From Psychrobacillus sp. FSL K6-2836 (GTDB lineage Bacteria; Bacillota; Bacilli; Bacillales_A; Planococcaceae): 64,000 nt of DNA. Shown in pieces: positions 1,184-64,000 of the stretch. The notes beneath the pieces are model-generated. The model was not told where the DNA came from, made no database searches, and worked only from the letters and a program-made list of their open reading frames with translations. The DNA lies in contig NZ_JBBOOM010000003.1 in assembly GCF_038003085.1 (NCBI RefSeq), positions 1 to 64,000 of the forward strand, read 5' to 3'. The translations under genes and the position numbers were made by a program. Numbering within the stretch: position 1 is the stretch's first letter; every line of letters begins with the position of its first letter.

Positions 1184-1266
1184 TTATTCAACTAACCTGC
1201 CGAGTTGGTTCAATAAGAAAAAAAGCTTTACTCTTTCTTGAAGTAAAGCACCCGTTAGTTGAATAA
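1184..1266 (-). repeat. Intergenic bcr-like repeat, copy 1
   Basis: This 83-base element runs from TTATTCAACTAAC to GTTAGTTGAATAA and contains an internal arm pair AGTAAAGC...GCTTTACT. The same unit occurs on the other strand at about 57749-57833 and 59477-59557, with fragments at 41466-41510, 57913-57932 and 60487-60520. It contains no open frame and folds as two nested hairpins. It looks like a small mobile or extragenic palindromic repeat. Confidence 0.7.
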
Positions 1267-2733: not shown

Positions 2734-3020
2734 TATTAATCCTCCTTTACTTTAATATATTCTCCCATTTTTAAAATTACATACATTACTTGATTCGTCC
2801 TTACATAATCTCATGATAAATGCATTGATTTTACTAAATCAACGTCGCGTTACTTTATTTCTTAACCCATCTCTTATTAAACTAAACTGCCGCGTTAGTT
2901 TAAGTGAAGCGTTTCACAATCTCACCTTTATTAAAGAATCAATTGTATCAGTGTCTAAAAAAAGCATTAATCCTTGTGGGATCAACGCTGATTAGAGTAA
3001 AACAAAAACTGGTATAAGTC
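2734..3020. other. Intergenic region with repeat debris
   Basis: No convincing gene is seen in these 287 bases. The part around 2870-2910 (AAACTGCCGCGTTAGTTTAAG) resembles an end of the bcr-like repeats described elsewhere in the window. The promoter of the coat genes should lie near 2735-2800. Confidence 0.4.
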
Positions 3021-39099: not shown

Positions 39100-39699
39100 T
39101 ACAAACTATGTAGCAAGTATACGTTTGGAATACGAGGAATTGTTTAGATTGACCTTTTCTCATGAGACACCTCATTTCATTGGTACTGTGCCACCACTTT
39201 CACTGATATAAAGGCAAGTTATACAGTAACTATTATCGTTATTGCTTTCCCTGCCAACGTTTCTTAGGGAGTAAGCCCTCCGCGTTATCAGCTTACAACG
39301 TTGAATTATATCTATTATAGAATGAACTTAGATGCTTCCTGTAAGCCTGTTAGCATTCATACGCCTGTAACGTATCATGGATTTTCATATTAGTTAGTCT
39401 TACTCATCCACATCTAACCTCACGATTTGGTGATATACACATTTCTATGTATCGCAGTTCTAGACCCGTACATTCAGAAGTTCGTCAGCTTAACCTTTTC
39501 TTTTAGGTTTATTCGCATTCTCACCATATTCATTCAACTCAAGCATCATGAACTACACCACTCCATCGAGTAGGCTTTCGTCAGCCGAACTGGTACGGTA
39601 ATTTCTCACGCCTTTTCACCGAGCTTATAACACAGTCATTCTTACTAAATCCAGTGCTACTCGACTAAGAGAGAACCCTTCCGTAGGAACATTTCGCAC
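39100..39699 (-). other. Group II intron, 5' fragment (domain I)
   Basis: On the minus strand the element starts with GTGCGAAATG at 39699, matching the GUGYG 5' end of group II introns. About 600 bases of stem-rich, non-coding sequence follow (blocks such as GCTGATAACGCGGAGGGCTT and CAATGAAATGAGGTGTCTCA). No reverse transcriptase frame and no domain V are found before the cls gene, so the 3' part is missing. Its 5' end directly abuts the right end of the IS110 copy. The 3' boundary is approximate. Confidence 0.5.
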
Positions 39700-41466
39700 A
39701 ACTAAACTCCCTCTATAAACATTGAGATATCAACGGTTTACATCACTTCGTGATTTAAGAAAAATATTTTTCTTTCGTTTAATAAACAGAGTCTTGAATT
39801 TATAGATTTTATTACCAAATCGAGCGTACGCTTCGCTAAAACTAATGGAAATCATTAGCCTTTTTCTCCACTATGTGATGCACAATGGATCTCTGCGAAA
39901 CTTATGACGACGTACCCTCCCATGTCTCTTAGCGTCAGTGCGCTTACATTCCTTCGTTCGGTCTATTCATAAGGCAGAGGTCAGCTAAGCTGCCCCGGGG
40001 ACTCATAGTCTTAGTGTTAGTTATAGTGCCGGCTTCTCCGTGTCATCCTTTAATAGGTCGTTGATTGGAAATGCTTACGCTGCCTCTCCGAGACAGTAAA
40101 GATCTTTCATCATAGCTTGCTCGTTAAAATAAACTTTCTTTTTACAAATTCCATGTAATACCTTTAGTAATTTACCACAGAGTACTACCATCGATTGCTT
40201 GCCCCGTAAGGGATTTTGTTTCCGTGTTGTGTAGTATTCATGTAAGTGTTTAAACGCTTGGTTGTGACGAATAAGTGGAACAATTACTTTGAAAAGAATA
40301 TATCTAAGTTTCTTTCTTCCTCGTTTGGAGATATGTTTTTGTCCCTTATGTTGTCCAGAAGAGTTTTCACGTAATGTTAATCCCGCTAGTTTGATGAGTT
40401 GGCGTGGATTCTCATAAAGTGAAAAGCTTCCTACTTCTGAAAGTAAGTCTACAATCGTCGCATCTCCTAGACCTGGAACAGATGCGAGCAGGTCATATTC
40501 ATTCGTTGTTTTAGCCATTTCAGCTAATTGATTATTTACTTCTTCAATTTCCGTTTCTAATAAACGATATTGACGTAGGAGTGTGGCAATTTCATGTTTG
40601 GCCATCTGTGCTCCTTCAGTCAATCCGATTGAGTTAGTCGCAGCTTCAATCAGTAGTTTGGCTTTCGGTAACTGTGGAGCTTTCATACCCCCTACCTGAC
40701 GGTAGAGAAAGACAAGTTCTTCCGCTGTTTTCCCTTGAAGTTCCTGAGGCATTGGTGTTTTTTCTAGTGCTACAAGTGCCATCTTTCCGAAAGTAGAAAA
40801 GACTTGAGTAAATTCAGGGAAATAGCGATCGAGCCAACGTCTGATTCGATTTTTAATACTAGCTAAATCCTCTGTTAACTTGGAACGTAAGGTAGATCCG
40901 ATGCGCAGTTCAGCTTCTATCTCCTTTAATAAACGAGGGTAGCTAAAGCGACCGTCTTTCATTAAACGAGCGATGACTAACGCATCTTTTTTATCATTCT
41001 TCGTCTGTAAATTATCATCCAGTTCTTTCGAACGTTTGACGTGCATTGGATTTACCATAACGAGTGGAATGCCGTATTGATCTAAAAAATAAGCTAAGTT
41101 CATCCAGTAGTGACCTGTAGGTTCGATGCCGACGATGACTTCCGTTTTCTGTGTTTCCAGCATCGTTTGTCGAATCTTTTCATACAAAATTTCGAATCCT
41201 TCTTTTGATTGATGTACCGCAAAGGCCTTTTCTATCACGCGTCCTCTTTCATCGACGAAACAGGCGTAATGCACACGCTTCGCAATGTCCATGCCAACGA
41301 CGAGTGTATTTTCAGTCACTTGATTAATTTTGTTATTCACTTTAGAATGCATTTAGGAGTCCTCCTTGTAGATGATGGGTCAATGGTCGTTGACACTCAG
41401 CATCATACTAGAGGGCTCTTTTTTCTGCAAGACCCCGAACATCTTTCAAACAGGAATGCTGCCCCT
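39700..41466 (-). mobile_element. IS110-family element (IS1111 group), copy A
   Basis: The left end is near 41465 (GGGGCAGCATTCC on the minus strand) and the right end near 39700 (GGGAGTTTAGTT). It spans about 1.77 kb, like copy B at 55477-57248. The transposase is followed by about 370 bases of non-coding DNA that is highly conserved between the copies. In the IS1111 group this position holds the bridge RNA. The left flank is half of a bcr-like repeat. Confidence 0.8.
40075..41352 (-). CDS. IS110-family transposase (DEDD recombinase), copy A
   Basis: The product is 425 aa. The N-terminal RuvC-like DEDD domain begins VVGMDIAKRVHYACFVDE, and IGIEPTGHYWMNLA appears near residue 100. The C-terminal IS116/IS110/IS902 domain has SVPGLGDATIVDLLSEVGSF and the conserved serine region KLAGLTLRENSSGQHKGQ. 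It is full length and near-identical to copy B, so it may be active. The start at 41352 follows AGGAGGACTCCTAA. It recombines element ends and target under guidance of the bridge RNA. Confidence 0.9.
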   Translation of the reverse strand: MHSKVNNKINQVTENTLVVGMDIAKRVHYACFVDERGRVIEKAFAVHQSKEGFEILYEKIRQTMLETQKTEVIVGIEPTGHYWMNLAYFLDQYGIPLVMVNPMHVKRSKELDDNLQTKNDKKDALVIARLMKDGRFSYPRLLKEIEAELRIGSTLRSKLTEDLASIKNRIRRWLDRYFPEFTQVFSTFGKMALVALEKTPMPQELQGKTAEELVFLYRQVGGMKAPQLPKAKLLIEAATNSIGLTEGAQMAKHEIATLLRQYRLLETEIEEVNNQLAEMAKTTNEYDLLASVPGLGDATIVDLLSEVGSFSLYENPRQLIKLAGLTLRENSSGQHKGQKHISKRGRKKLRYILFKVIVPLIRHNQAFKHLHEYYTTRKQNPLRGKQSMVVLCGKLLKVLHGICKKKVYFNEQAMMKDLYCLGEAA

Positions 41467-41510
41467 TTAGTTCAATAAGAAAAAAGGCTTTACTCCTTTT
41501 GGAGAATTAC
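41466..41510 (-). repeat. Half of a bcr-like repeat flanking IS110 copy A
   Basis: On the minus strand, AGTAAAGCC, a T-run and CTTATTGAACTAAA lead directly into the IS left end. This is exactly half of the repeat seen complete at 57749-57833, so the element is inserted at the tip of the repeat's palindrome. Confidence 0.65.
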
Positions 41511-55170: not shown

Positions 55171-55292
55171 ACATCCAGACTGGTGTTCATTAACTGTGGA
55201 TGCTTTTTCATTTTAACGTGTGGATTGTGGAATTCTAATCTTCTGTGTAACAAAACTCGTCCCTTTCTGAACACGCCCCAATCCAAATGGAA

Positions 55293-55299
55293 AAGAGCG
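55293..55299. repeat. Target site duplication, left (AAGAGCG)
   Basis: The 7-base sequence AAGAGCG directly precedes the left end of the Tn552-like transposon and is repeated exactly after its right end at 63679-63685. Confidence 0.85.
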
Positions 55300-55591
55300 T
55301 GTCACTTTAGTTGGTACTTTGCACATTTTTAAAGCATTATTTTGCACCTAATATTCAAAATGAAACATTACAGTCTTTAAATCAAGTAAATTAATTACTG
55401 TGTCAGTTATTACCATTTAAGTTACAATAATATTAAGGGTATCCAGTATAAATTTCGACTACCGAATCTTCAACTAACGGGGCAGCATTCCTGTTTGAAA
55501 GTTATTCGGGGTCTTGCAGAAAAAAGAGCCCTCTAGTATGATGCTGAGTGTCAACGCACATTGACCCATCATCTACTAGGAGGACTCCTAA

Positions 55592-56869
55592 ATGCATTCT
55601 AAAATGAATAACAAAATTAATCAAGTGACTGAAAATACACTCGTCGTTGGCATGGACATTGCGAAGCGTGTGCATTACGCCTGTTTCGTCGATGAAAGAG
55701 GACGCGTGATAGAAAAAGCATTTGCGGTACATCAATCAAAAGAAGGTTTCGAAAGTTTGTATAAAAAGATTCGATTAACGATGAAAGAAACTCAGAAGAC
55801 AGAAGTAGTTGTTGGAATTGAACCTACGGGTCACTATTGGATGAATTTAGCGTATTTCTTAGATCAATATGGAATTCCACTCGTCATGGTCAATCCAATG
55901 CACGTCAAACGTTCTAAAGAACTGGACGATAATTTACCGACCAAGCATGATAAAAAAGATGCGCTAGTCATCGCTCGTTTAGTGAAAGATGGACGTTTTA
56001 GTTATCCACGTTTATTAAAAGACATAGATGCTGAATTGCGTATTGGTTCTACCCTTCGTTCCAAATTAACGGAGGACCTATCAAGTATTAAAAATCGAAT
56101 CATTCGTTGGTTGGATCGTTACTTTCCAGAGTTTACTCAAGTCTTTCCGTCTTTTGGGAAGATGGCACTTGCCACGCTGGAAAAGACTCCGTTGCCAAAG
56201 GATATTGAACGGAAAACCGCTGAACAGCTTGTGTTTCTCTACCGTCAGGTAGAGGGAATGAGAGTTCCACAGTTACCTAAAGCACAGCTTCTCATTGAGG
56301 CTGCGATAAAATCTATTGGACTGACAGAAGGAACAGAGATGGCCCGACGTGAAATCGCCACGCTCCTACGTCAGTATCGCTTATTAGAAAGCGAAATTGA
56401 ATCTTTAAACAATCAACTAGCCGAAATGGCTAAAATGACTATGGAATATGACCTACTTGCATCGGTTCCAGGTTTAGGAGATGCGACGATTGTTGATTTA
56501 CTTTCAGAAGTAGGAAGCTTTTCACTTTATGATAATCCACGCCAACTCATCAAACTAGCGGGATTAACATTACGTGAAAACTCATCTGGTCAGCATAAGG
56601 GGCAAAAACATATCTCCAAACGAGGAAGAAAAAGACTTAGATATATTCTTTTCAAAGTAATAGTACCACTCATTCGTCACAACGAAGCTTTCAAGCAACT
56701 TCATGAATATTACACCACACGCCAACAAAATCCCTTACGTGGAAAGCAATCAATGGTGGTATTGTGTGGTAAATTACTGAAGGTATTACATGGTATTTGT
56801 AAAAAGAAAGTCCGTTTTAACGAGAAACATATGATGAAAGACCTTTACTGTCTCGCAGAGGCAGCATAA
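55592..56869 (+). CDS. IS110-family transposase, copy B
   Basis: The product is 425 aa with an intact DEDD domain (VVGMDIAKRVHYACFVDE) and a C-terminal serine domain (KLAGLTLRENSSGQHKGQ). It is very similar to copy A at 40075, with scattered substitutions, so the two copies have diverged rather than being a very recent duplication. AGGAGGACTCCTAA precedes the ATG. It may be active. Confidence 0.9.
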   Translation: MHSKMNNKINQVTENTLVVGMDIAKRVHYACFVDERGRVIEKAFAVHQSKEGFESLYKKIRLTMKETQKTEVVVGIEPTGHYWMNLAYFLDQYGIPLVMVNPMHVKRSKELDDNLPTKHDKKDALVIARLVKDGRFSYPRLLKDIDAELRIGSTLRSKLTEDLSSIKNRIIRWLDRYFPEFTQVFPSFGKMALATLEKTPLPKDIERKTAEQLVFLYRQVEGMRVPQLPKAQLLIEAAIKSIGLTEGTEMARREIATLLRQYRLLESEIESLNNQLAEMAKMTMEYDLLASVPGLGDATIVDLLSEVGSFSLYDNPRQLIKLAGLTLRENSSGQHKGQKHISKRGRKRLRYILFKVIVPLIRHNEAFKQLHEYYTTRQQNPLRGKQSMVVLCGKLLKVLHGICKKKVRFNEKHMMKDLYCLAEAA

Positions 56870-57248
56870 ACAAATTCTTTTCATCGAACTATTCCAAGAA
56901 GGATGACACGGAGAAGCCAGCAACATAACTAAACTTAGACCAAGAGTCCCCGGGGCAGCTTAGCAGGCCTCTGCCTTATGAATAGACCGAACGAAGGAAT
57001 GTAAGCGCACTGACGCTAAGAGACATGGGAGGGTACGTCGTCATAAGTTTCGCAGAGATCCATTGTGCATCACATAGTGGAGAAAAAAGCTAATGATTTC
57101 CATTAGTTTTAGCGAAGCGTACGCTCAACTTGGTAATAAAATCTATAAATTCAAGACTCTGTTTATCAAAGAAAAGAAAAATATTTTTCTTAAATCACGA
57201 AGTGATGAAAACCGTTGATATCTCAATGTTTATAGAGGGAGTTTAGTT
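56870..57248 (+). ncRNA. Candidate IS110 bridge-RNA region (right end)
   Basis: This non-coding segment is strongly conserved with 39700-40074 and contains several short stems, among them GGCAG...CTGCC near 56955. It contains AACTAAACT near 56923, matching the inner right end, and GGGGCAGC, matching the left end. IS1111-group elements encode their guide RNA here. The exact RNA ends and loops are not determined. Confidence 0.5.
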
Positions 57249-57315
57249 GAAGAAAAAGGATTATTTTCTCGCCTTATAGAATTTATAGATATGTAAAATT
57301 ATTGGAGGGAAATAA

Positions 57316-57705
57316 ATGATTTTTGAAATAACTAATCAAGTCCGTGTTACTGATATTCAACAAGGACATAAGTGGTATGAAATTTTACTAAACAAAAAGC
57401 CTGATTTTATACCACACGATGGATTCGTCGAATGGGAAATCCTACCCGGTTGTTGGTTGCAAGTTGCTGAAGGAACTCCTTCGGAAGGTAGTGGACCTTT
57501 GCGTTTAGGGGTTACTAATATAATTGCTGAAAGAGATAGACTTGTAAAGGAGTTGGGAATTGAGAACTTTGAGATATTTTCTCGTGAAGAAGTCTCTGCA
57601 AAATGGGGGTCTTTCACTGACCCTTGGGGAAATCAACTGGGTTTCTTTGAGTATTTGGATAAGAAAGAAGAAAATGACCGTGTTAAAACGATTTTAGGAA
57701 TTTAA
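57316..57705 (+). CDS. VOC (glyoxalase/bleomycin-resistance fold) protein 1
   Basis: The product is 129 aa of the vicinal-oxygen-chelate fold. It has beta-alpha modules starting FEITNQVRVTDIQQGHKWYE and ending FTDPWGNQLGFFEY, the usual last strand. Metal ligand positions are only partly typical, so enzymatic function is uncertain; it could bind a small molecule. AGGGAAATAAATG initiates. It is the first plus-strand cargo gene after the IS110 copy. Confidence 0.7.
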   Translation: MIFEITNQVRVTDIQQGHKWYEILLNKKPDFIPHDGFVEWEILPGCWLQVAEGTPSEGSGPLRLGVTNIIAERDRLVKELGIENFEIFSREEVSAKWGSFTDPWGNQLGFFEYLDKKEENDRVKTILGI

Positions 57706-57748
57706 TCCAATTTAAAAACAAAGGCAATTTGGGATAAAAAATAAGTTT

Positions 57749-57833
57749 CTTATTCAACTAACGGGTGCTTTACTTCAAGAAGGAGTGCGGCCTTTTTTCT
57801 TATTGAACTAACGCAGCAGGTTAGTTTAATAAG
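57749..57833 (+). repeat. bcr-like repeat, copy 2
   Basis: CTTATTCAACTAACGGGTGC at the start and GGTTAGTTTAATAAG at the end enclose AAGAAGGAGTGCGGCC and TTATTGAACTAACGCAGC. It has the same structure as the copy at 1184-1266. A partial second unit (GGCAGGTTAGTTGAAC) follows at about 57915. Confidence 0.7.
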
Positions 57834-57958
57834 AAAAATTGATTTATGCTTATTTCAAATGGAAAGTAATTTAAATTTGGAACCTCTATTTTTTATAAAC
57901 GTATTAAAGTAAGTGGCAGGTTAGTTGAACTAGAAATTATAGATGAGGAGATAAAGGT

Positions 57959-58918
57959 ATGAGTGAAGACAACCTTAACCATCTAAGTGATGGTATCAGA
58001 CAAATTGAAAGTCAATTTAAAGAAAAAGTTGAACCGTTTCGTTCAGATTTGTGGCGATACTGTTATCGGCTTACCGGATCTCCTTGGGATGCAGAAGATT
58101 TAGTACAAGATACCATGCTGAAATCACTTTCAATCTTGGCAAAATTGTACCAGCCTGTTAAGACAAAATCTTATTTATTTCGGATTGCAACAAATCTCTG
58201 GATTGATCAACTAAGGAAGGGAAATGGCAGATTTACACTCTCTAACTATGAATTATTAATAGAGGATAAAACCACACAGAATGATTTTTTAGTAATGGAA
58301 AACTTGGAATTGCTTATACAACAACTTACCCCTATCCAATATGTTTCCTTACTATTAGCAGATGTATTTCTATTCAAAGGGAAAGAAATTGCAGAAATTT
58401 TAAATTCGAGTGAAAGTGCCGTACATACAAACTTAAGCAGGGCAAGGAGTACATTAAAACAAAAAGAAAAAGGAACAATCAAAGAAAGAAGCTCATACAT
58501 AAGAGAATTAAAACCATCTGAAACGTTTAAAGTTATGCTGAAAGGGCTGCGAAATAAAGATCCTAATTTAATTATCTCTGTATTAGACGACAACATAGTA
58601 ACCGACATTACACATTCCAGCTTGGAAATCGGGTTGGAAGAATTAAAGAAAAATTCTTTGAGGGATTGGAAAGAAGTTGTGGATAATCAGAACGTGATCG
58701 TTCCTCACTATATTGAATTATGGGGAAGGCCCGTCATTGTAGAATTGGAAAAGAAAGAAGATGCCCAATTATACTTGAACAACATCTACTTTTTGGAAGC
58801 GAGCAATACCAAGATAACATACTGGAAGTATTACTGTTTCTCATGGGATTTGATGAACTATGCTGCTGCTGAGTTGAACGTAAAATTAAATGCTAAATAT
58901 TTTTATCACATTTTTTAA
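57959..58918 (+). CDS. ECF-type RNA polymerase sigma factor with C-terminal SnoaL-like domain
   Basis: The product is 319 aa. Sigma region 2 (LWRYCYRLTGSPWDAEDLVQ; SYLFRIATNLWIDQLRKG) and region 4 (KGKEIAEILNSSESAVHTNL) are clear. The last 130 residues form a SnoaL/NTF2-like domain, as in ECF41-type or SigJ-like factors, which use it to control activity instead of a separate anti-sigma. A VOC gene lies downstream. It may turn on transposon cargo or host genes in response to a small molecule. AGGAGAT precedes the ATG. Confidence 0.8.
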   Translation: MSEDNLNHLSDGIRQIESQFKEKVEPFRSDLWRYCYRLTGSPWDAEDLVQDTMLKSLSILAKLYQPVKTKSYLFRIATNLWIDQLRKGNGRFTLSNYELLIEDKTTQNDFLVMENLELLIQQLTPIQYVSLLLADVFLFKGKEIAEILNSSESAVHTNLSRARSTLKQKEKGTIKERSSYIRELKPSETFKVMLKGLRNKDPNLIISVLDDNIVTDITHSSLEIGLEELKKNSLRDWKEVVDNQNVIVPHYIELWGRPVIVELEKKEDAQLYLNNIYFLEASNTKITYWKYYCFSWDLMNYAAAELNVKLNAKYFYHIF

Positions 58919-59005
58919 TATTCTTCGTAAGATTTTCCCTCTAAACTACGTTATATAGTTGAAGTTCCTTTACAGGATTTCAATTATTAGAGAAGGAGTG
59001 ATTGG

Positions 59006-59380
59006 ATGACTAGTCCAATTAGAAATCAAATAAACACAGTGTTTATCCATGTGAAAAATTTAGAGAGATCGGTCGAGTGGTATTGCCGTTTGCTCGGCCA
59101 GGAGTATGAACCTTCTGAAATTATAAGACCGGTTTACAATCTGAAAATCAATCATTTCACAGGATTGACTTTGGATGCAGGACCCGAAGGAGAAATAAAG
59201 GAAGTAGAGGCACTCCCCTATCCTTTGTTCAACTTTCATACGGATCAAATTCAGGATGCTTATGCATATGTGGAAGAACTGAATTATGAAATTGCTTCAG
59301 AAATTGTTCAATTTGATGATTTTGCATTTTTTACAGTTTTAGATCCGGACAAAAATACAGTGATGGTTTGTACAGGTTAA
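59006..59380 (+). CDS. VOC protein 2
   Basis: The product is 124 aa, with the VOC motif order FIHVKNLERSVEWYCRLLGQ and FFTVLDPDKNTVMVC. The conserved His and Glu metal positions of glyoxalase enzymes are partly present. It follows the sigma-factor gene by 88 bases with GAAGGAG upstream and may be in its regulon. Small-molecule binding or detoxification is likely; the ligand is unknown. Confidence 0.7.
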   Translation: MTSPIRNQINTVFIHVKNLERSVEWYCRLLGQEYEPSEIIRPVYNLKINHFTGLTLDAGPEGEIKEVEALPYPLFNFHTDQIQDAYAYVEELNYEIASEIVQFDDFAFFTVLDPDKNTVMVCTG

Positions 59381-59476
59381 ATAAAAGATATTGCATGCGC
59401 TAATCTGAAAATGGTTGGCGCATTTTTTGTAGAAACAGTTTATATGCTAATAAAAGGAAGTTTGTGAATAAATGTA

Positions 59477-59557
59477 CTTAAACTAACGGGTGCTTTACTT
59501 CAAGAAGGAGTAAAGCCTTTTTCTTATTTAACTAAAGACGCAGTTTAGTTGAATAAG
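59477..59557 (+). repeat. bcr-like repeat, copy 3
   Basis: CTTAAACTAACGGGTGC to GTTTAGTTGAATAAG, with the same AAGGAGTAAAGCC and CTTATTTAACTAAAG arms as the other copies. Half units are seen near 60487-60520. Confidence 0.7.
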
Positions 59558-59693
59558 AAGGATTTTTTATGGTTGTGTTGAATAAGTTAATATATGTAAA
59601 TTATTGAACAAAGGGGATGCTTTACTTTCAATCTGAAGGTGGGTGGCACTTTTTGAAAGAATGTCAAAAGTAAGCCGTTAAGGAGGGGTAGGT

Positions 59694-60128
59694 ATTCCTA
59701 AGATTAAGAAGAGGTTTTTACCTTTATTTATTTATATTCCTTTGATAACAATACTTCTTTTAACATTGAAGACCAACTTCAATTTGACTGGTTATAATTA
59801 TTACTTGGATGAAGAAACGATGAAGTTAACGATTGAAGAGGGCTTCGTAAAAAAAGAAACGTACAATGTGCAAGATTCTCCAATTCAAGCGATAAAAGTA
59901 ATGTTGCCAATTAACAAAGCATATGACATGTGGGGACTTACTATCTTAATATCCTCGCTTTTTATTACAGGCTTTTTCTTATTATTTTTTAAACCTTCGA
60001 TACCAAGGAAAAATGTGAAATTGTATGTCACCGTATATTTTATATTCCTTACCATCTTTATTATTTGGGATATTTACGTACACAAAGAAATTATTAAGGA
60101 AATATCAAATGCTCTAAATAGTTTATAA
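59694..60128 (+). CDS. Small membrane protein, possible ATT start
   Basis: The product would be 144 aa if it starts at ATT 59694, 5 bases after AAGGAGGGG. A TTG at 59742 exists but has no site and would cut the first membrane helix (PLFIYIPLITILLLTLK). It has three helices, at residues 8-26, about 80-98 and 108-126. An outer loop contains YNYYLDEETMKLTIEEGF. I do not recognise the family. The rare start may be a mutated ATG. Confidence 0.55.
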   Translation: MPKIKKRFLPLFIYIPLITILLLTLKTNFNLTGYNYYLDEETMKLTIEEGFVKKETYNVQDSPIQAIKVMLPINKAYDMWGLTILISSLFITGFFLLFFKPSIPRKNVKLYVTVYFIFLTIFIIWDIYVHKEIIKEISNALNSL

Positions 60129-60249
60129 AGATAGAATGACCTTTATTTTTCAAAATGGTGTTCCATATTTTTTTACCTAACGGAGTGCTTTAGCAGAACA
60201 AGACATATGGGTTATCATGGTGATAGGAAGTTGTATAGGGGGTGTCTAA

Positions 60250-60495
60250 ATGATGTTGTTCCTTCAAGCATTTATTGGTTCAATTGTAATTCATGTAGTC
60301 TATTTTTTCGGTATGATGTTAGTCGGTTATATTAAAACAAGAAATTATAAACCAGATTTTGCAAGTGCTTGGGATAATGTAGAGACACTTCAAAGTGAAG
60401 TGGTTTTTAGTAAGGTTAATTCGCATTTTCTTTACCTATTCACATTTGTAGGAGTAGCTATACTATGTGGAATTATAATAAAATTCTTCAACTAA
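60250..60495 (+). CDS. Small two-helix membrane protein
   Basis: The product is 81 aa. Helix 1 is residues 3-27 (FLQAFIGSIVIHVVYFFGMM) and helix 2 is residues 58-80 (HFLYLFTFVGVAILCGIIIK), with a polar loop between. AGGGGG lies before ATG 60250. The family is unknown. It lies downstream of another membrane-protein gene and may be co-transcribed. Bcr-like repeat remains follow. Confidence 0.55.
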   Translation: MMLFLQAFIGSIVIHVVYFFGMMLVGYIKTRNYKPDFASAWDNVETLQSEVVFSKVNSHFLYLFTFVGVAILCGIIIKFFN

Positions 60496-60727
60496 CGGGT
60501 GCTTTAGTTTAAGATTCGGAAACCGAAATAAAATGGCGACGTTCAGTAAATCTGAATATTGCCATTTTTTGTATATACTCAATCTCAAAAACGATAGTTA
60601 TTGAGATCTTTTATTTTGTCTTCATTTTGAGGAGAATCATAGGTAATTTGTGTATCAGAATATTGCTCAAAATCTATGTATCATTAACTACCGTTTATGG
60701 TATATTTTATCTAGAGGTGGCTAAAAA

Positions 60728-61300
60728 ATGAGTTCATACATTTACGGGTATGCCCGAGTGAGTACTCGGCAACAAGAATTGGATCGACAGTTAGATTTAT
60801 TGAAGGAATACAATTGCAATGAAATCTTAACGGAGAAAATGTCTGGTACAAAATCAGATCGACCAGAGTTAAATCGGTTAAAAGACAAATTACGTCCTGG
60901 CGATGTGGTAATTGTGGAAAGCTTCTCACGATTAGGAAGAAGCACAAAGGATTTAATTGACTTGGTGAATTATTTCGAGGAAATCAATGTAAAGCTTATA
61001 AGTATTAAAGAAAAATTTGATATGTCTACTCCTCAGGGGAAATTGATGATGACAGTGTTCCAAGCATTTAGTCAGTTTGAACGTGATTTGATTGTGCAGC
61101 GTACAAAAGAAGGGTTAAAAAGTGCTCGGGCTCGTGGACGTAAAGGTGGTCGACCACAAGTCAATGAGAAAGAAATTAGAAAGGCTATTAACCTGTATAA
61201 AACCGAGCAATATAGTGTGAAGGAAATTGTTGAAATGACGGGTATTAGTAGAGCCACGTTGTATCGCTATGTAGAGAAAGAAAAAATAGAAACGAGATGA
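60728..61300 (+). CDS. Serine resolvase of the Tn552-like element (Bin type)
   Basis: The product is 190 aa. The catalytic serine is in YGYARVSTRQQELDRQL (near residue 12). The conserved FSRLGRSTKDLIDLV and AFSQFERDLIVQRTKEGL blocks are present. A C-terminal helix-turn-helix contains YSVKEIVEMTGISRATLYRY. The length equals that of Tn552 BinL. It resolves cointegrates at a res site expected just upstream (60590-60720). Its end overlaps the frame of the transposase region. Confidence 0.9.
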   Translation: MSSYIYGYARVSTRQQELDRQLDLLKEYNCNEILTEKMSGTKSDRPELNRLKDKLRPGDVVIVESFSRLGRSTKDLIDLVNYFEEINVKLISIKEKFDMSTPQGKLMMTVFQAFSQFERDLIVQRTKEGLKSARARGRKGGRPQVNEKEIRKAINLYKTEQYSVKEIVEMTGISRATLYRYVEKEKIETR

Positions 61301-61338
61301 GTTGTTGCTGTGCAAATCTGGAAGAAGGAGTGCTTTGT

Positions 61339-62772
61339 ATGAACAATGAACCAGCCCCGTTAACTTCTTATTCTGAAGAACAAAGAAAAACAGCTGTTCA
61401 AAAGTTTCGTATCATTGAGCCTTACTTGATTGGCGAAAAGAAGTTGAACACGATTGTTGGAGAGACTGGATTCGCTAAACGCACGCTTCATTATTGGATA
61501 AAAGCATATGAACTGTATGGATTATGCGGATTAATTCGCCAAAAACGTTGCGATGCCAATCACTTTAAACTGGAAAAAGAAGTAGTATCGGAAGTTGAGC
61601 AGTTGATTTACCAATATCCTAAAAACTCACTTACATCAATTCACCGTAAAATCTGTTCCATCTGTGAAGAAAAACAATGGCAGAGACCAAGTTATGCCCA
61701 AGTTTATGCAATAGCCAAATCTCTTTCATCAGCGGCCAAGACATTAGCTACTGACGGGACAAAAGCATATAAAAATCAATACGATTTAATCTATCGTCGA
61801 GAAGCCAATTACCCAAACGAGTTTTGGCAGGCCGATCACACATTATTAGATATTGTTTTAATGAATGAAAAAGGAAAAGATGAACGACCATGGCTAACAA
61901 TCATTTTGGATGAGTACAGTAGATCAATTGCTGGTTATTTTTTATCCTTTCAGGCGCCTTCAGCCATTCAAACAGCTTTAGCCCTGCACCAAGCAGTATG
62001 GCGAAAGAGTCATCAAGATTGGAGCATTTGTGGTATTCCAGAACATTTTTATACAGACCATGGCAGTGATTTTACATCAAAGCATTTAGAGCAAGTTGCC
62101 ATTGATTTAAAAATCAATCTTGTATTCTCGACTGTTGGTGTCCCAAGAGGTAGAGGGAAAATTGAACGCTTCTTTTTAACGGTGAATCAATTGTTTTTAC
62201 AGGACTTGCCCGGTTATATACACAACAAAAAATCCGAACCCCTCCTCTCCCTACATGAACTAGATGCAAAACTAGAAACCTTTATAATCAATGTTTACCA
62301 TCAACGTGTGCATGGAACGACAAAACAAGAGCCAATGACGCGATGGAACCAGTCTGGATTTTTGCCGAATATGCCAGAAAGCTTAGAGCAACTTGACTTA
62401 TTATTATTAAAAGTTGCCAAAGCGAGAAAAGTACACTCAGACGGAATACACTTTCAAGGGCTAAGGTATACAGAACCGAATCTCGCTGCCTTTGTTGGGG
62501 AAACGGTTGTCATTCGTTACGATCCACGAGACCTTGCGGAAATAAGAGTATTTTATAATGACCGTTATTTATGTACAGCCATTTCACCTGAAATAGCCGA
62601 TTACACAGTAGACTTAAAAGAGATTGTTGCGGCTAGAAACAACCGAAAACGCACGTTACAGAAACAAATCACACCTGAGAAAACAGTAATTGAAGAGATC
62701 GTTGAGTCTAAACAATTTGAAACAAGTTCAGAGAAACCAAAGTCAAACTTGAAGAGGTATTTCAATGAATAG
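61339..62772 (+). CDS. DDE transposase of Tn552/TnsB/Mu type
   Basis: The product is 477 aa from ATG 61339 after GAAGGAG; the longer frame from 61297 overlaps the resolvase. An N-terminal helix-turn-helix (LNTIVGETGFAKRTLHYWIK) is followed by the DDE core: FWQADHTLLDIVL, FYTDHGSDFTSKHLEQVA and GRGKIERFFLTVNQ. It matches the size of Tn552 p480. It acts with the ATPase encoded next to insert the element, giving short target repeats. Confidence 0.9.
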   Translation: MNNEPAPLTSYSEEQRKTAVQKFRIIEPYLIGEKKLNTIVGETGFAKRTLHYWIKAYELYGLCGLIRQKRCDANHFKLEKEVVSEVEQLIYQYPKNSLTSIHRKICSICEEKQWQRPSYAQVYAIAKSLSSAAKTLATDGTKAYKNQYDLIYRREANYPNEFWQADHTLLDIVLMNEKGKDERPWLTIILDEYSRSIAGYFLSFQAPSAIQTALALHQAVWRKSHQDWSICGIPEHFYTDHGSDFTSKHLEQVAIDLKINLVFSTVGVPRGRGKIERFFLTVNQLFLQDLPGYIHNKKSEPLLSLHELDAKLETFIINVYHQRVHGTTKQEPMTRWNQSGFLPNMPESLEQLDLLLLKVAKARKVHSDGIHFQGLRYTEPNLAAFVGETVVIRYDPRDLAEIRVFYNDRYLCTAISPEIADYTVDLKEIVAARNNRKRTLQKQITPEKTVIEEIVESKQFETSSEKPKSNLKRYFNE

Positions 62773-63574
62773 TACACAACCCTTTATTGAGACAAAAGAG
62801 TATAAACGGTTCGTGGAATTTTGTGAGGCCTGTATCAAGTATAAATATATAGGCATTTGCTATGGTCTGCCTGGTGTGGGAAAAACTCTATCTTCGAGAC
62901 ACTATTCAAATTGGGACTACGCTGATAGACAAATAAATTATAAAGCTGGCGACAAAGTAAGGATAGATACAGATGATCGGATACTAAACTGTCATACTCT
63001 TTTTTATACCGCGCCAGCTATTAGAGCATCCAAGTTAACTGCAGAACTTGATATACTAGGTGCTAAATTAAATTTGGTGAAGTCTAAATATAATGAAAAA
63101 ACATATGGCATAGAAAAATATACAACAAATTTTTATGAAGGTATTCACTTGATTATTGTCGATGAAATTGATCGCTTAAAATTACAAGATTTAGAACAAC
63201 TTCGTGATATCTATGATCAACGTAACCTAGCCATAGTATTCATTGGAATGCCAGGGATAGAAAAACGATTAGCACGTTACCCGCAACTTTACTCTCGCAT
63301 TGGTTTTGCGCACGAATTTCAAAAGCTTAGTAAAGACGAGATGCACCATATCTTAGAATACAAATGGGATGAACTTGATATCTCTATTAAAAAAGAGAAT
63401 TTCTCCGATTATGAGGCGCTCACAAGTATCATGAAAGTCACAAATGGAAATTTCAGACTCATTCATCGGCTATTTACTCAGATGGAACGTATTCTTGAAA
63501 TCAATCACCTGACATCCATTACCTCAGAGGTCGTAGAAGCTGCACGAAATAGCTTAGTGATTGGACGTAAATAA
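62765..63574 (+). CDS. Transposition AAA ATPase (Tn552 p271/TniB/TnsC type)
   Basis: The product is 269 aa, overlapping the transposase by 8 bases. Walker A is CYGLPGVGKTLSSRHY near residue 35 and Walker B is LIIVDEIDRLK near 130. An arginine-rich sensor region (ERIL; YSRIGFAHEFQKL) follows. It is the size of Tn552 p271 and should bind DNA and direct the transposase to targets, perhaps to resolution sites. Confidence 0.9.
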   Translation: MNSTQPFIETKEYKRFVEFCEACIKYKYIGICYGLPGVGKTLSSRHYSNWDYADRQINYKAGDKVRIDTDDRILNCHTLFYTAPAIRASKLTAELDILGAKLNLVKSKYNEKTYGIEKYTTNFYEGIHLIIVDEIDRLKLQDLEQLRDIYDQRNLAIVFIGMPGIEKRLARYPQLYSRIGFAHEFQKLSKDEMHHILEYKWDELDISIKKENFSDYEALTSIMKVTNGNFRLIHRLFTQMERILEINHLTSITSEVVEAARNSLVIGRK

Positions 63575-63580
63575 ATGAAG

Positions 63581-63619
63581 AAACCCAGCTAATTTTCTAG
63601 TAGATAGTTAGCTGGGTTT
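63581..63619 (+). terminator. Terminator of the transposition operon
   Basis: AAACCCAGCTAA pairs with TTAGCTGGGTTT, followed by a T-run. It lies 7 bases after the ATPase stop codon and just inside the right end of the transposon. Confidence 0.85.
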
Positions 63620-63678
63620 TAACGTTTTCAGTGCAAAATAGCACTTAAAACTAGTGCAATTAATACCCTAAAGTGACA

Positions 63679-63685
63679 AAGAGCG
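63679..63685. repeat. Target site duplication, right (AAGAGCG)
   Basis: This is the exact copy of the 7 bases at 55293-55299. It starts the DNA outside the right end of the Tn552-like transposon. Confidence 0.85.
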
Positions 63686-63802
63686 TTTTTTTATACTTAT
63701 GATGTAACAAAACCCTGTACATTATTCTATGTTCAATAACGAATGGCATTTTATCTTATGTTACAATTAGAGTATAGAGAAAATGCGAAAAGAGTGATTT
63801 TA
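63686..63802 (+). promoter_or_regulatory. Probable res site of the last resolvase gene
   Basis: GTAACA (63705-63710) and TGTTAC (63759-63764) inverted arms, and AT-rich spacing, lie upstream of the resolvase start, where Tn3-family res sites are found. The Tn552-like element is inserted at its outer edge. Confidence 0.4.
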
Positions 63803-64000
63803 TTGTTAATTGGCTATGCACGTGTATCAACAGGATTACAAAATTTGGATTTACAGACGGATGCGTTAACGCAACATGGTTGTTCTAAAATTTTCCACGA
63901 TAAAATGAGTGGGACAAAAAAACAACGACCTGGTTTGGAAGAAGCATTGGAGTATGCACGTGAAGGAGATACGATTGTTGTTTGGCGATTGGATCGATTG
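63803..64000 (+). CDS. Serine recombinase, Tn3-family resolvase type (cut by window end)
   Basis: The first 66 residues begin at TTG 63803 (AAAGAGTGAT upstream). The catalytic-serine motif LIGYARVSTGLQNLDLQ is intact, and KMSGTKKQRPGLEEALEYA and VVWRLDRL follow. The sequence is unlike the Tn552-type resolvase at 60728. It is probably the resolvase of the larger Tn1546-like transposon whose left repeat is at 35949, though this cannot be proven because the transposase is outside the window. Confidence 0.8.
   Translation, partial: MLIGYARVSTGLQNLDLQTDALTQHGCSKIFHDKMSGTKKQRPGLEEALEYAREGDTIVVWRLDRL

Follow-up and report, generated by a model that had tools for sequence, protein, structure and literature searches.

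A Tn552-like transposon in a resolvase res region, with cargo resembling cassettes of chromosomal arrays in Bacillales

We analyzed the first 64,000 nucleotides of contig NZ_JBBOOM010000003.1 from Psychrobacillus sp. FSL K6-2836 (this whole stretch is called the window below), following up an earlier note made from its letters alone. The window contains a transposon of 8379 bp at positions 55300-63678. Sequence comparison suggests that it is a Tn552-like transposon inserted in the res region of a plasmid resolvase, in the spacer that separates sites I and II, and that its cargo consists of repeat-bounded cassettes from integron-like arrays, a reading to which we assign a probability of roughly 85%. 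Res targeting by Tn552 is already known (PMC3276174, in its passage on Tn552), and the transposon with its target is well supported as a further case of this behavior. What is new is the cargo, whose genes alternate with inverted repeats of a type that also builds arrays in the chromosome of the host and in relatives.

Boundaries and gene content of the transposon

The two tips of the transposon agree: TGTCACTTTAG starts at position 55300 and its complement ends at 63678, with 11 bp identical, and 39 of the first 60 bases are the same when the two terminal stretches are compared. The left end (55300..55350, + strand) carries the motif TTGCAC at 55319 and 55342 and the right end (63628..63678, - strand) carries it as GTGCAA at 63654 and 63631, at offsets 19 and 42 from each tip. 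Directly outside the tips, the 7-bp target duplication AAGAGCG is found at 55293-55299 and 63679-63685; the odds of a chance 7-base match at this place are about 1 in 16,000 (4^-7). The earlier note had described a complete transposon with exact ends and a 7-bp duplication, which is correct to the base, and the matching tips and motif offsets that it reported are present at both ends. It had also proposed looking for the terminal motifs in relatives. A 50-bp end profile, built on 15 hand-picked ends that include both ends of this transposon, indicates that relatives share these motifs; the two ends of this transposon score 55.5 and 54.0, compared with a maximum of 1.1 in one shuffled 20-kb sequence.

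From left to right, the transposon encodes an IS110-family transposase, a 129-aa protein, an extracytoplasmic function (ECF)-type sigma factor, a glyoxalase-fold protein, two small proteins, and then tnpR, tnpA, and tnpB. Open reading frames (ORFs) and domain matches identify tnpR (60728..61300, +) as a serine resolvase of 190 aa, tnpA (61297..62772, +) as a DDE transposase of 491 aa with rve and Mu-transpos_C domains, and tnpB (62765..63574, +) as an AAA ATPase of 269 aa. Residues D180, D254, and E290 of TnpA are invariant in an alignment of five proteins. The putative res region of the element itself (60583..60727, +) lies directly upstream of tnpR and was placed by alignment with eight relatives, whose site I resembles the one found here (TCTCAAAAACGATAGTTATTGAGATC at 60583-60608, labeled by analogy). 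The host genome comprises 4.54 Mb in five contigs, with the transposon on contig C3 (99,544 bases), and holds a single copy of this TnpA besides one 29%-identical stretch. No tyrosine-type integrase gene was found within the transposon by ORF list and domain scan. The length of 8379 bp includes a later insert of ~1.8 kb, since an IS110-family element occupies 55469-57255 in the left part.

Cargo genes, inverted repeats, and chromosomal arrays

The cargo comprises five genes on the + strand. These encode the 129-aa protein (57316..57705), with a similar gene beside other neighbors in genomes G022 and G057; the ECF-type sigma factor of 319 aa (57959..58918); a glyoxalase/vicinal oxygen chelate (VOC)-fold protein of 124 aa (59006..59380); a small protein of 128 aa (59742..60128), with similar DNA in G003, G009, and G010; and a small protein of 81 aa (60250..60495), whose gene is 92% identical in DNA to one in the host's own chromosomal array. 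The earlier note had listed an ECF sigma factor and two VOC proteins in an unusual load. The sigma factor and the unusual character stand, the load looking like repeat-bounded cassettes plus an IS110 insertion, and one VOC protein, that of 124 aa, is retained; the 129-aa protein has no Pfam or NCBIfam match, its VOC-like label coming from the earlier note. None of the five cargo proteins was matched by a PADLOC model.

Three of the five cargo genes are also present elsewhere, among other neighbors. Copies of the 129-aa gene cover 57250-57705 in G022 and start from 57266 in G057, those of the 128-aa gene cover 59482-60191 in G009, 59459-60149 in G010, and 59668-60147 in G003, and those of the 81-aa gene cover 60198-60487 in the host chromosome and 60177-60480 in G022. 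The homology of these recurring genes stops at most ~110 bp from a repeat.

The stretch 57000-60700 matches 51 of 101 genomes, the host included, and many among the matches listed are short and clustered. These matches are copies of two adjoining inverted repeats, AACTAACGGGTGCTTTAGTT and AACTAACGCAGCAGTTTAGTT, with variants. In the transposon such repeats, which we term attC-like, separate the cargo genes on the + strand as two full pairs (57748..57838 and 59473..59563) and two partial sites, one at 60177..60193 (CTAACGGAGTGCTTTAG), where the homology to G022 begins, and one at 60488..60511, with the first inverted repeat only. DNA folding gives six repeat sites z-scores of -2.3 to -4.7. The second repeat is predicted to fold as its own hairpin in three of five full pairs, one pair forms a single long stem, the first repeat folds alone only at the partial site 60488, and in three pairs the predicted stem starts inside the first repeat; with such varied folds the sites do not share one uniform structure. 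The second repeat has 104 matches in the host genome versus none for the reversed pattern. We also observed at least 47 second-repeat matches, 45 of them on one strand, at ~9866-121196 of contig C2, which may form a cassette array of very large size on a second replicon, and inverted-repeat copies elsewhere on the same plasmid-sized contig as the transposon (window 1190-1260 and 2880-2900 (-)).

A tyrosine recombinase of ~280 aa, encoded on the opposite strand, adjoins the repeat arrays of the host chromosome and of G015. The host's own chromosomal array (L105:15728-20000 and L106, ~C1:4179727-4199200) shows the recombinase, a leader, co-oriented small genes, and paired inverted repeats, with repeats on the recombinase's other side too. 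Of 300 genomes searched, 69 have relatives of the recombinase (E up to 1e-40), the weaker ones probably being other Xer-type proteins. At 23 of 30 recombinase loci there is a leader with a TTTTxAxTAACG-like core at its end, no more than 130 bp from the start, a raw count taken without random control. The mean agreement between loci is 0.76 in the 45 bases leading up to the end of the core and 0.73 in the 20 that follow, which form the second repeat's shared half; in bases 21-60 it is 0.44. Such a leader and core by a divergent recombinase, followed by the array, is what an attI-like site looks like. One of the 23 leader-proximal cassettes (L120) is also found behind a repeat in another genome (L132); the two differ upstream of the core, at which the query was cut, the crossover base being placed no finer.

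The repeats and leaders are interrupted by mobile elements. The IS110-family insertion of the transposon (55469..57255, +; transposase 55592-56869) lies inside an attC-like repeat and splits a second repeat, with TTCAACTAACGGGGCAG before it and GTTTAGTTGAAGAA after it. A second copy, 88% identical, is at window 39699-41475 (-), and all three full-length copies seen (55469, 39699, and L114) sit in a second repeat, the one at 39699-41475 with a shorter right half. Since many repeats are unoccupied, the halves beside the insertion sequence probably belong to the target and not to the insertion sequence, and the copies look like an IS110 group targeting the second repeat. In G015 the core of the leader is followed by a group II intron (Rfam RF02005), and in L133 a first repeat is broken by an intron start that is 99% identical over 124 bp. 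Introns of this kind were thus seen both in a leader-proximal site (L107:2340-3023) and in a first repeat (L133). IS110/IS1111 elements and group IIC introns are known to insert into integron attC sites.

Chromosomal integrons and clusters of attC sites lacking integron integrases (CALIN) likewise have a tyrosine recombinase divergent from the array, an attI-like leader, mostly single-gene units, inverted-repeat sites, and IS110 elements and group II introns in these sites. The system seen here differs from them in its hosts, which are Bacillota, in its Xer-like recombinase, which scores below the integron cut-off, and in its paired repeats, which have the core ACTAACG-NN-GCAG instead of the attC boxes; the only Rfam gathering-level matches were group II introns. 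The recombinase reaches 219.7 bits against a cut-off of 220 bits for the archaeal-type XerA family, and the PDB entries that match it best are Xer proteins, IntI4 ranking far lower. Integron integrases are described as having a specific insertion in the catalytic domain (PMC8138268, in its account of these enzymes). In its results on this phylum, IntegronFinder 2.0 reports one complete integron in Firmicutes (Limnochorda) and few CALIN across the phylum (PMC9024848), and a review counts Firmicutes among the phyla having integrons in its taxonomic overview (PMC8618304). Among the matches listed from open-licence full texts, titles and abstract openings gave no description of this Bacillales cassette system.

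Taken as a whole, we would place even odds on Planococcaceae and other Bacillales carrying an undescribed integron-like system, made of an Xer-type tyrosine recombinase, an attI-like leader, and cassette arrays bounded by a paired inverted-repeat site, part of which was captured onto a plasmid-sized replicon by a Tn552-like res hunter. The captured stretch would include the two full and two partial cassette sites. The Xer-like recombinase would build the arrays behind the attI-like leader, integron-like arrays of the host lineage are the probable source of the cassettes, which may have entered the element from a chromosomal array, and the IS110 element would have inserted later into one cassette site.

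Several observations weigh against this proposal. No array copy was found for the sigma factor or for the second VOC gene. Among 25 elements with both ends, this is the only one that holds the second repeat, so the cargo link rests on one element and cassette capture looks recent or rare. Seven of the 30 recombinase loci have no leader and core. Five loci at 63-73% recombinase identity (L143, L144, L146-L148) have no repeat within 1.4 kb on either side, and no leader-side repeat was found in L125, L136, L137, and the partial L145, a group II intron following the core in L125; these repeat-free loci argue against a universal site, or for other site sequences. In favor of cassettes, 77 of 85 scored first repeats sit behind a gene on the same strand (ten stretches picked for repeats, 94 repeats in total); gene arrays are mostly one-stranded anyway, and co-orientation is therefore weak evidence. 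With the integron integrase model TIGR02249 the recombinase scores 87.5 bits versus a cut-off of 265, and no match above this cut-off was found anywhere in the host genome; the model gives weak matches in all 14 control genomes, so a weak match alone means nothing for an integron. With a recombinase below the integrase cut-off, the system is not an integron by the defining integrase, yet it is laid out like one. Finally, movement of the element and of cassettes is deduced from comparing sequences, none having been observed.

Alternatively, the cargo repeats could be dispersed repetitive extragenic palindrome (REP)- or BOX-like sequences, acting as terminators or passive, with the cargo brought in by homologous recombination between them. 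We regard this explanation as unlikely. It fits the position of the repeats downstream of genes, the good folding of most of them, their 104 matches in the genome, the weakness of co-orientation as evidence, the five recombinase loci with no nearby repeat, and the fact that no IntI above cut-off and no canonical attC was seen. Against it stand the conservation of leader and core beside the recombinase at 23 of 30 loci, the cassette that lies next to the leader in L120 and behind a repeat in L132, and the interruption of repeats by IS110 and a group II intron, by analogy with integron attC sites.

Tn402-type elements are res hunters that carry integron cassettes, and the transposon analyzed here, with its cassette-like cargo, appears to resemble a Gram-positive counterpart of them. 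The cargo suggests that Bacillota have an integron-like cassette system, one probably overlooked by integron finders, and that a transposon can bring cassettes of such a system onto a plasmid. If true, this would parallel, in Gram-positive bacteria, the way in which class 1 integrons arose on Tn402, and how Gram-positive bacteria collect and trade single genes becomes a directly testable question.

Insertion in resolvase res regions

The right end of the transposon faces a Bin-type resolvase (63803..64000, on to L004:14357, +) that is 73% identical to Bin, the Tn552 resolvase of pSAS, and 43% identical to the element's own TnpR. Its start was taken as the TTG at 63803, as in relatives, with an in-frame ATG at 63743. 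This TTG is 117 bp past the second AAGAGCG, in agreement with the ~120 bp of the earlier note, and the frame is open for 184 codons, extending beyond the window end. After the gene, at L004:14378-14730 (C3:64378-64730), a decayed stretch resembles by eye a broken second resolvase.

Upstream of the resolvases, 15 of 18 other aligned regions have in common two conserved blocks, corresponding by analogy to sites I and II, and a shorter third block. The regions that do not fit are L014 and L045, from one genome, and L055, with a different resolvase type; the upstream sequence of L081 was too short for the alignment. In the window, the putative site I is in the left flank (55244..55275, +) and putative sites II and III, placed by the same alignment, follow the right end (63701..63771, +). 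The insertion point, with the left copy of the duplication, falls in the variable spacer between the site I and site II blocks, and with one AAGAGCG retained the two blocks align with no gap between them. The target's res should be disabled, as site I is parted from sites II and III.

Joining the flanks, a check proposed earlier, yields a query that 10 plasmid records match continuously along 80% or more of its length. The joined flanks are also continuous in six other genomes, from query base 60-67 to the end, the junction being at base 120. Four inspected plasmid stretches have a resolvase with no tnpA or tnpB listed within ~5 kb in the PLSDB gene tables, which are incomplete, and in two inspected stretches the matched resolvase is the tnpR of a sister element. 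Only four resolvase-domain matches occur in the 4.54 Mb of the host genome, one being the element's own TnpR.

These data are consistent with a mechanism in which the DDE transposase and ATPase would insert the element between crossover site I and accessory site II, probably guided by resolvase-bound res, and duplicate 7 bp. The cointegrate would then be resolved by the element's own TnpR and res, which could also take over resolution from the disabled target.

Related loci were collected from species genomes (37 loci), plasmids, and further genomes, the order-level genome search covering the same 261 genomes as the family-level search. The analyzed set contains 38 loci with TnpA identity of at least 60% and at least one recognized end with >100 bp of flank; loci below 60% identity, loci with no recognized end, L076 (= L045), and L082 (sister of L081) were left out. 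At 11 of the 38 loci, this one included, a non-self resolvase starts within 200 bp outside one end and reads outward. As all flanks together, 381,607 bases, have only 13 resolvase N-terminal matches, 0.22 near-end resolvases are expected versus 11 observed (Poisson P ~1e-15). Resolvases of different families were struck upstream of their start. The duplicated site AGTAGAC is identical in two elements with different resolvase types, L039 and L051, and L032, with no duplication found, is joined to the same base in the opposite orientation. Res-like flanks were recognized by DNA match at three more loci (L054, L058, and L064); the short matches between res libraries and the flanks of L031, L036, L045, and L083 were not counted as res.

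Both orientations are found among the 11 loci, six with the right (tnp) end toward the resolvase and five with the left end, and the IRo-type orientation rule of Tn5053 is not seen in this group of relatives. The Tn552 res hunting that we found in print concerns staphylococcal plasmids; here it extends across many Bacilli and both orientations, is mapped to the spacer between two res blocks, and reuses one site base-exactly.

Other counts weigh against res targeting. No res link was counted at 24 of the 38 loci, and res sites are recognizable at only 11 (14 with flank matches). Seven of 13 loci with a detected duplication, some short duplications perhaps being chance, are outside recognizable res, which makes targeting preferred, not obligatory. 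Five of the 11 resolvase-adjacent loci share one resolvase type, so the 11 are not fully independent. The 24 loci and the frequency of resolvases on plasmids would suit adjacency by chance or joint travel of transposon and resolvase as one block. We consider this very improbable given the empty sites in the four plasmid stretches described above, the different resolvase families struck upstream of their start, and the 11 of 13 resolvase starts that lie within 200 bp and point outward. The placement in a resolvase res region, as the earlier note read it, is supported by the joined flanks, the position between blocks, and the 11 of 38 related loci.

Relation to Tn552 and Tn5053/Tn402

A 7-bp duplication is known among Tn552-like transposons. 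By its sequence features the element is a complete Tn552-like transposon: a DDE transposase with rve and Mu C-terminal domains is followed by an AAA ATPase, its own serine resolvase is upstream of tnpA with a res placed by alignment, the inverted tips have internal repeats, the duplication is within 6-7 bp, and the insertion is in the res region of a plasmid resolvase. In its passage on Tn552, PMC3276174 calls res sites hotspots for insertion and gives a 6-bp duplication; the p480/p271-like transposase and ATPase, the serine resolvase, and the plasmid res-site insertion are likenesses to the element described there. Staphylococcal Tn552 is found in sin res sites, and a right tip of TGTCAC can be seen on pSAS behind tnpB. 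The transposon differs from Tn552 in a TnpA only 52% identical to the Tn552 transposase on pSAS, in having no bla genes, in a duplication of 7 bp versus 6 bp, and in its orientation, the tnp end facing the resolvase here and, judged by gene order, the bla side on pSAS.

The earlier note had called the element Tn552-like and had named both Tn552 and Tn5053/Tn402-type elements as known to target res sites; the Tn552-like label stands, in preference to a Tn5053/Tn402-like one. Tn5053 preferentially inserts with IRo, its tniA-distal end, beside the resolvase, and its duplication is 5 bp (PMC7765201, in its section on Tn5053). The interval from the end of tnpB (63574) to the right tip (63678), the expected place of a tniQ gene, contains no ORF and thus no TniQ; no scanned element protein matched the TniQ family in the general domain scan, no TniQ profile having been run alone. 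Membership in the Tn5053/Tn402 family is highly improbable: the element shares with it the logic of res-site hunting (PMC7765201, same section), resolvase, DDE transposase, and ATPase, but has just two transposition genes with no ORF behind them, a duplication of 7 bp and not 5 bp, a transposition-gene end in the place that IRo takes in Tn5053, and nearest DNA relatives that are mostly elements of Gram-positive bacteria. From class 1 integrons the transposon further differs in having no integrase gene in the element and a cassette recombinase of another kind.

DNA matches to the transposase and ATPase were found in 734 plasmid records, 662 of them from Staphylococcus or Enterococcus. No TnpA relative was found among the viral contigs searched; weaker protein-level relatives of TnpA are present in other phyla too.

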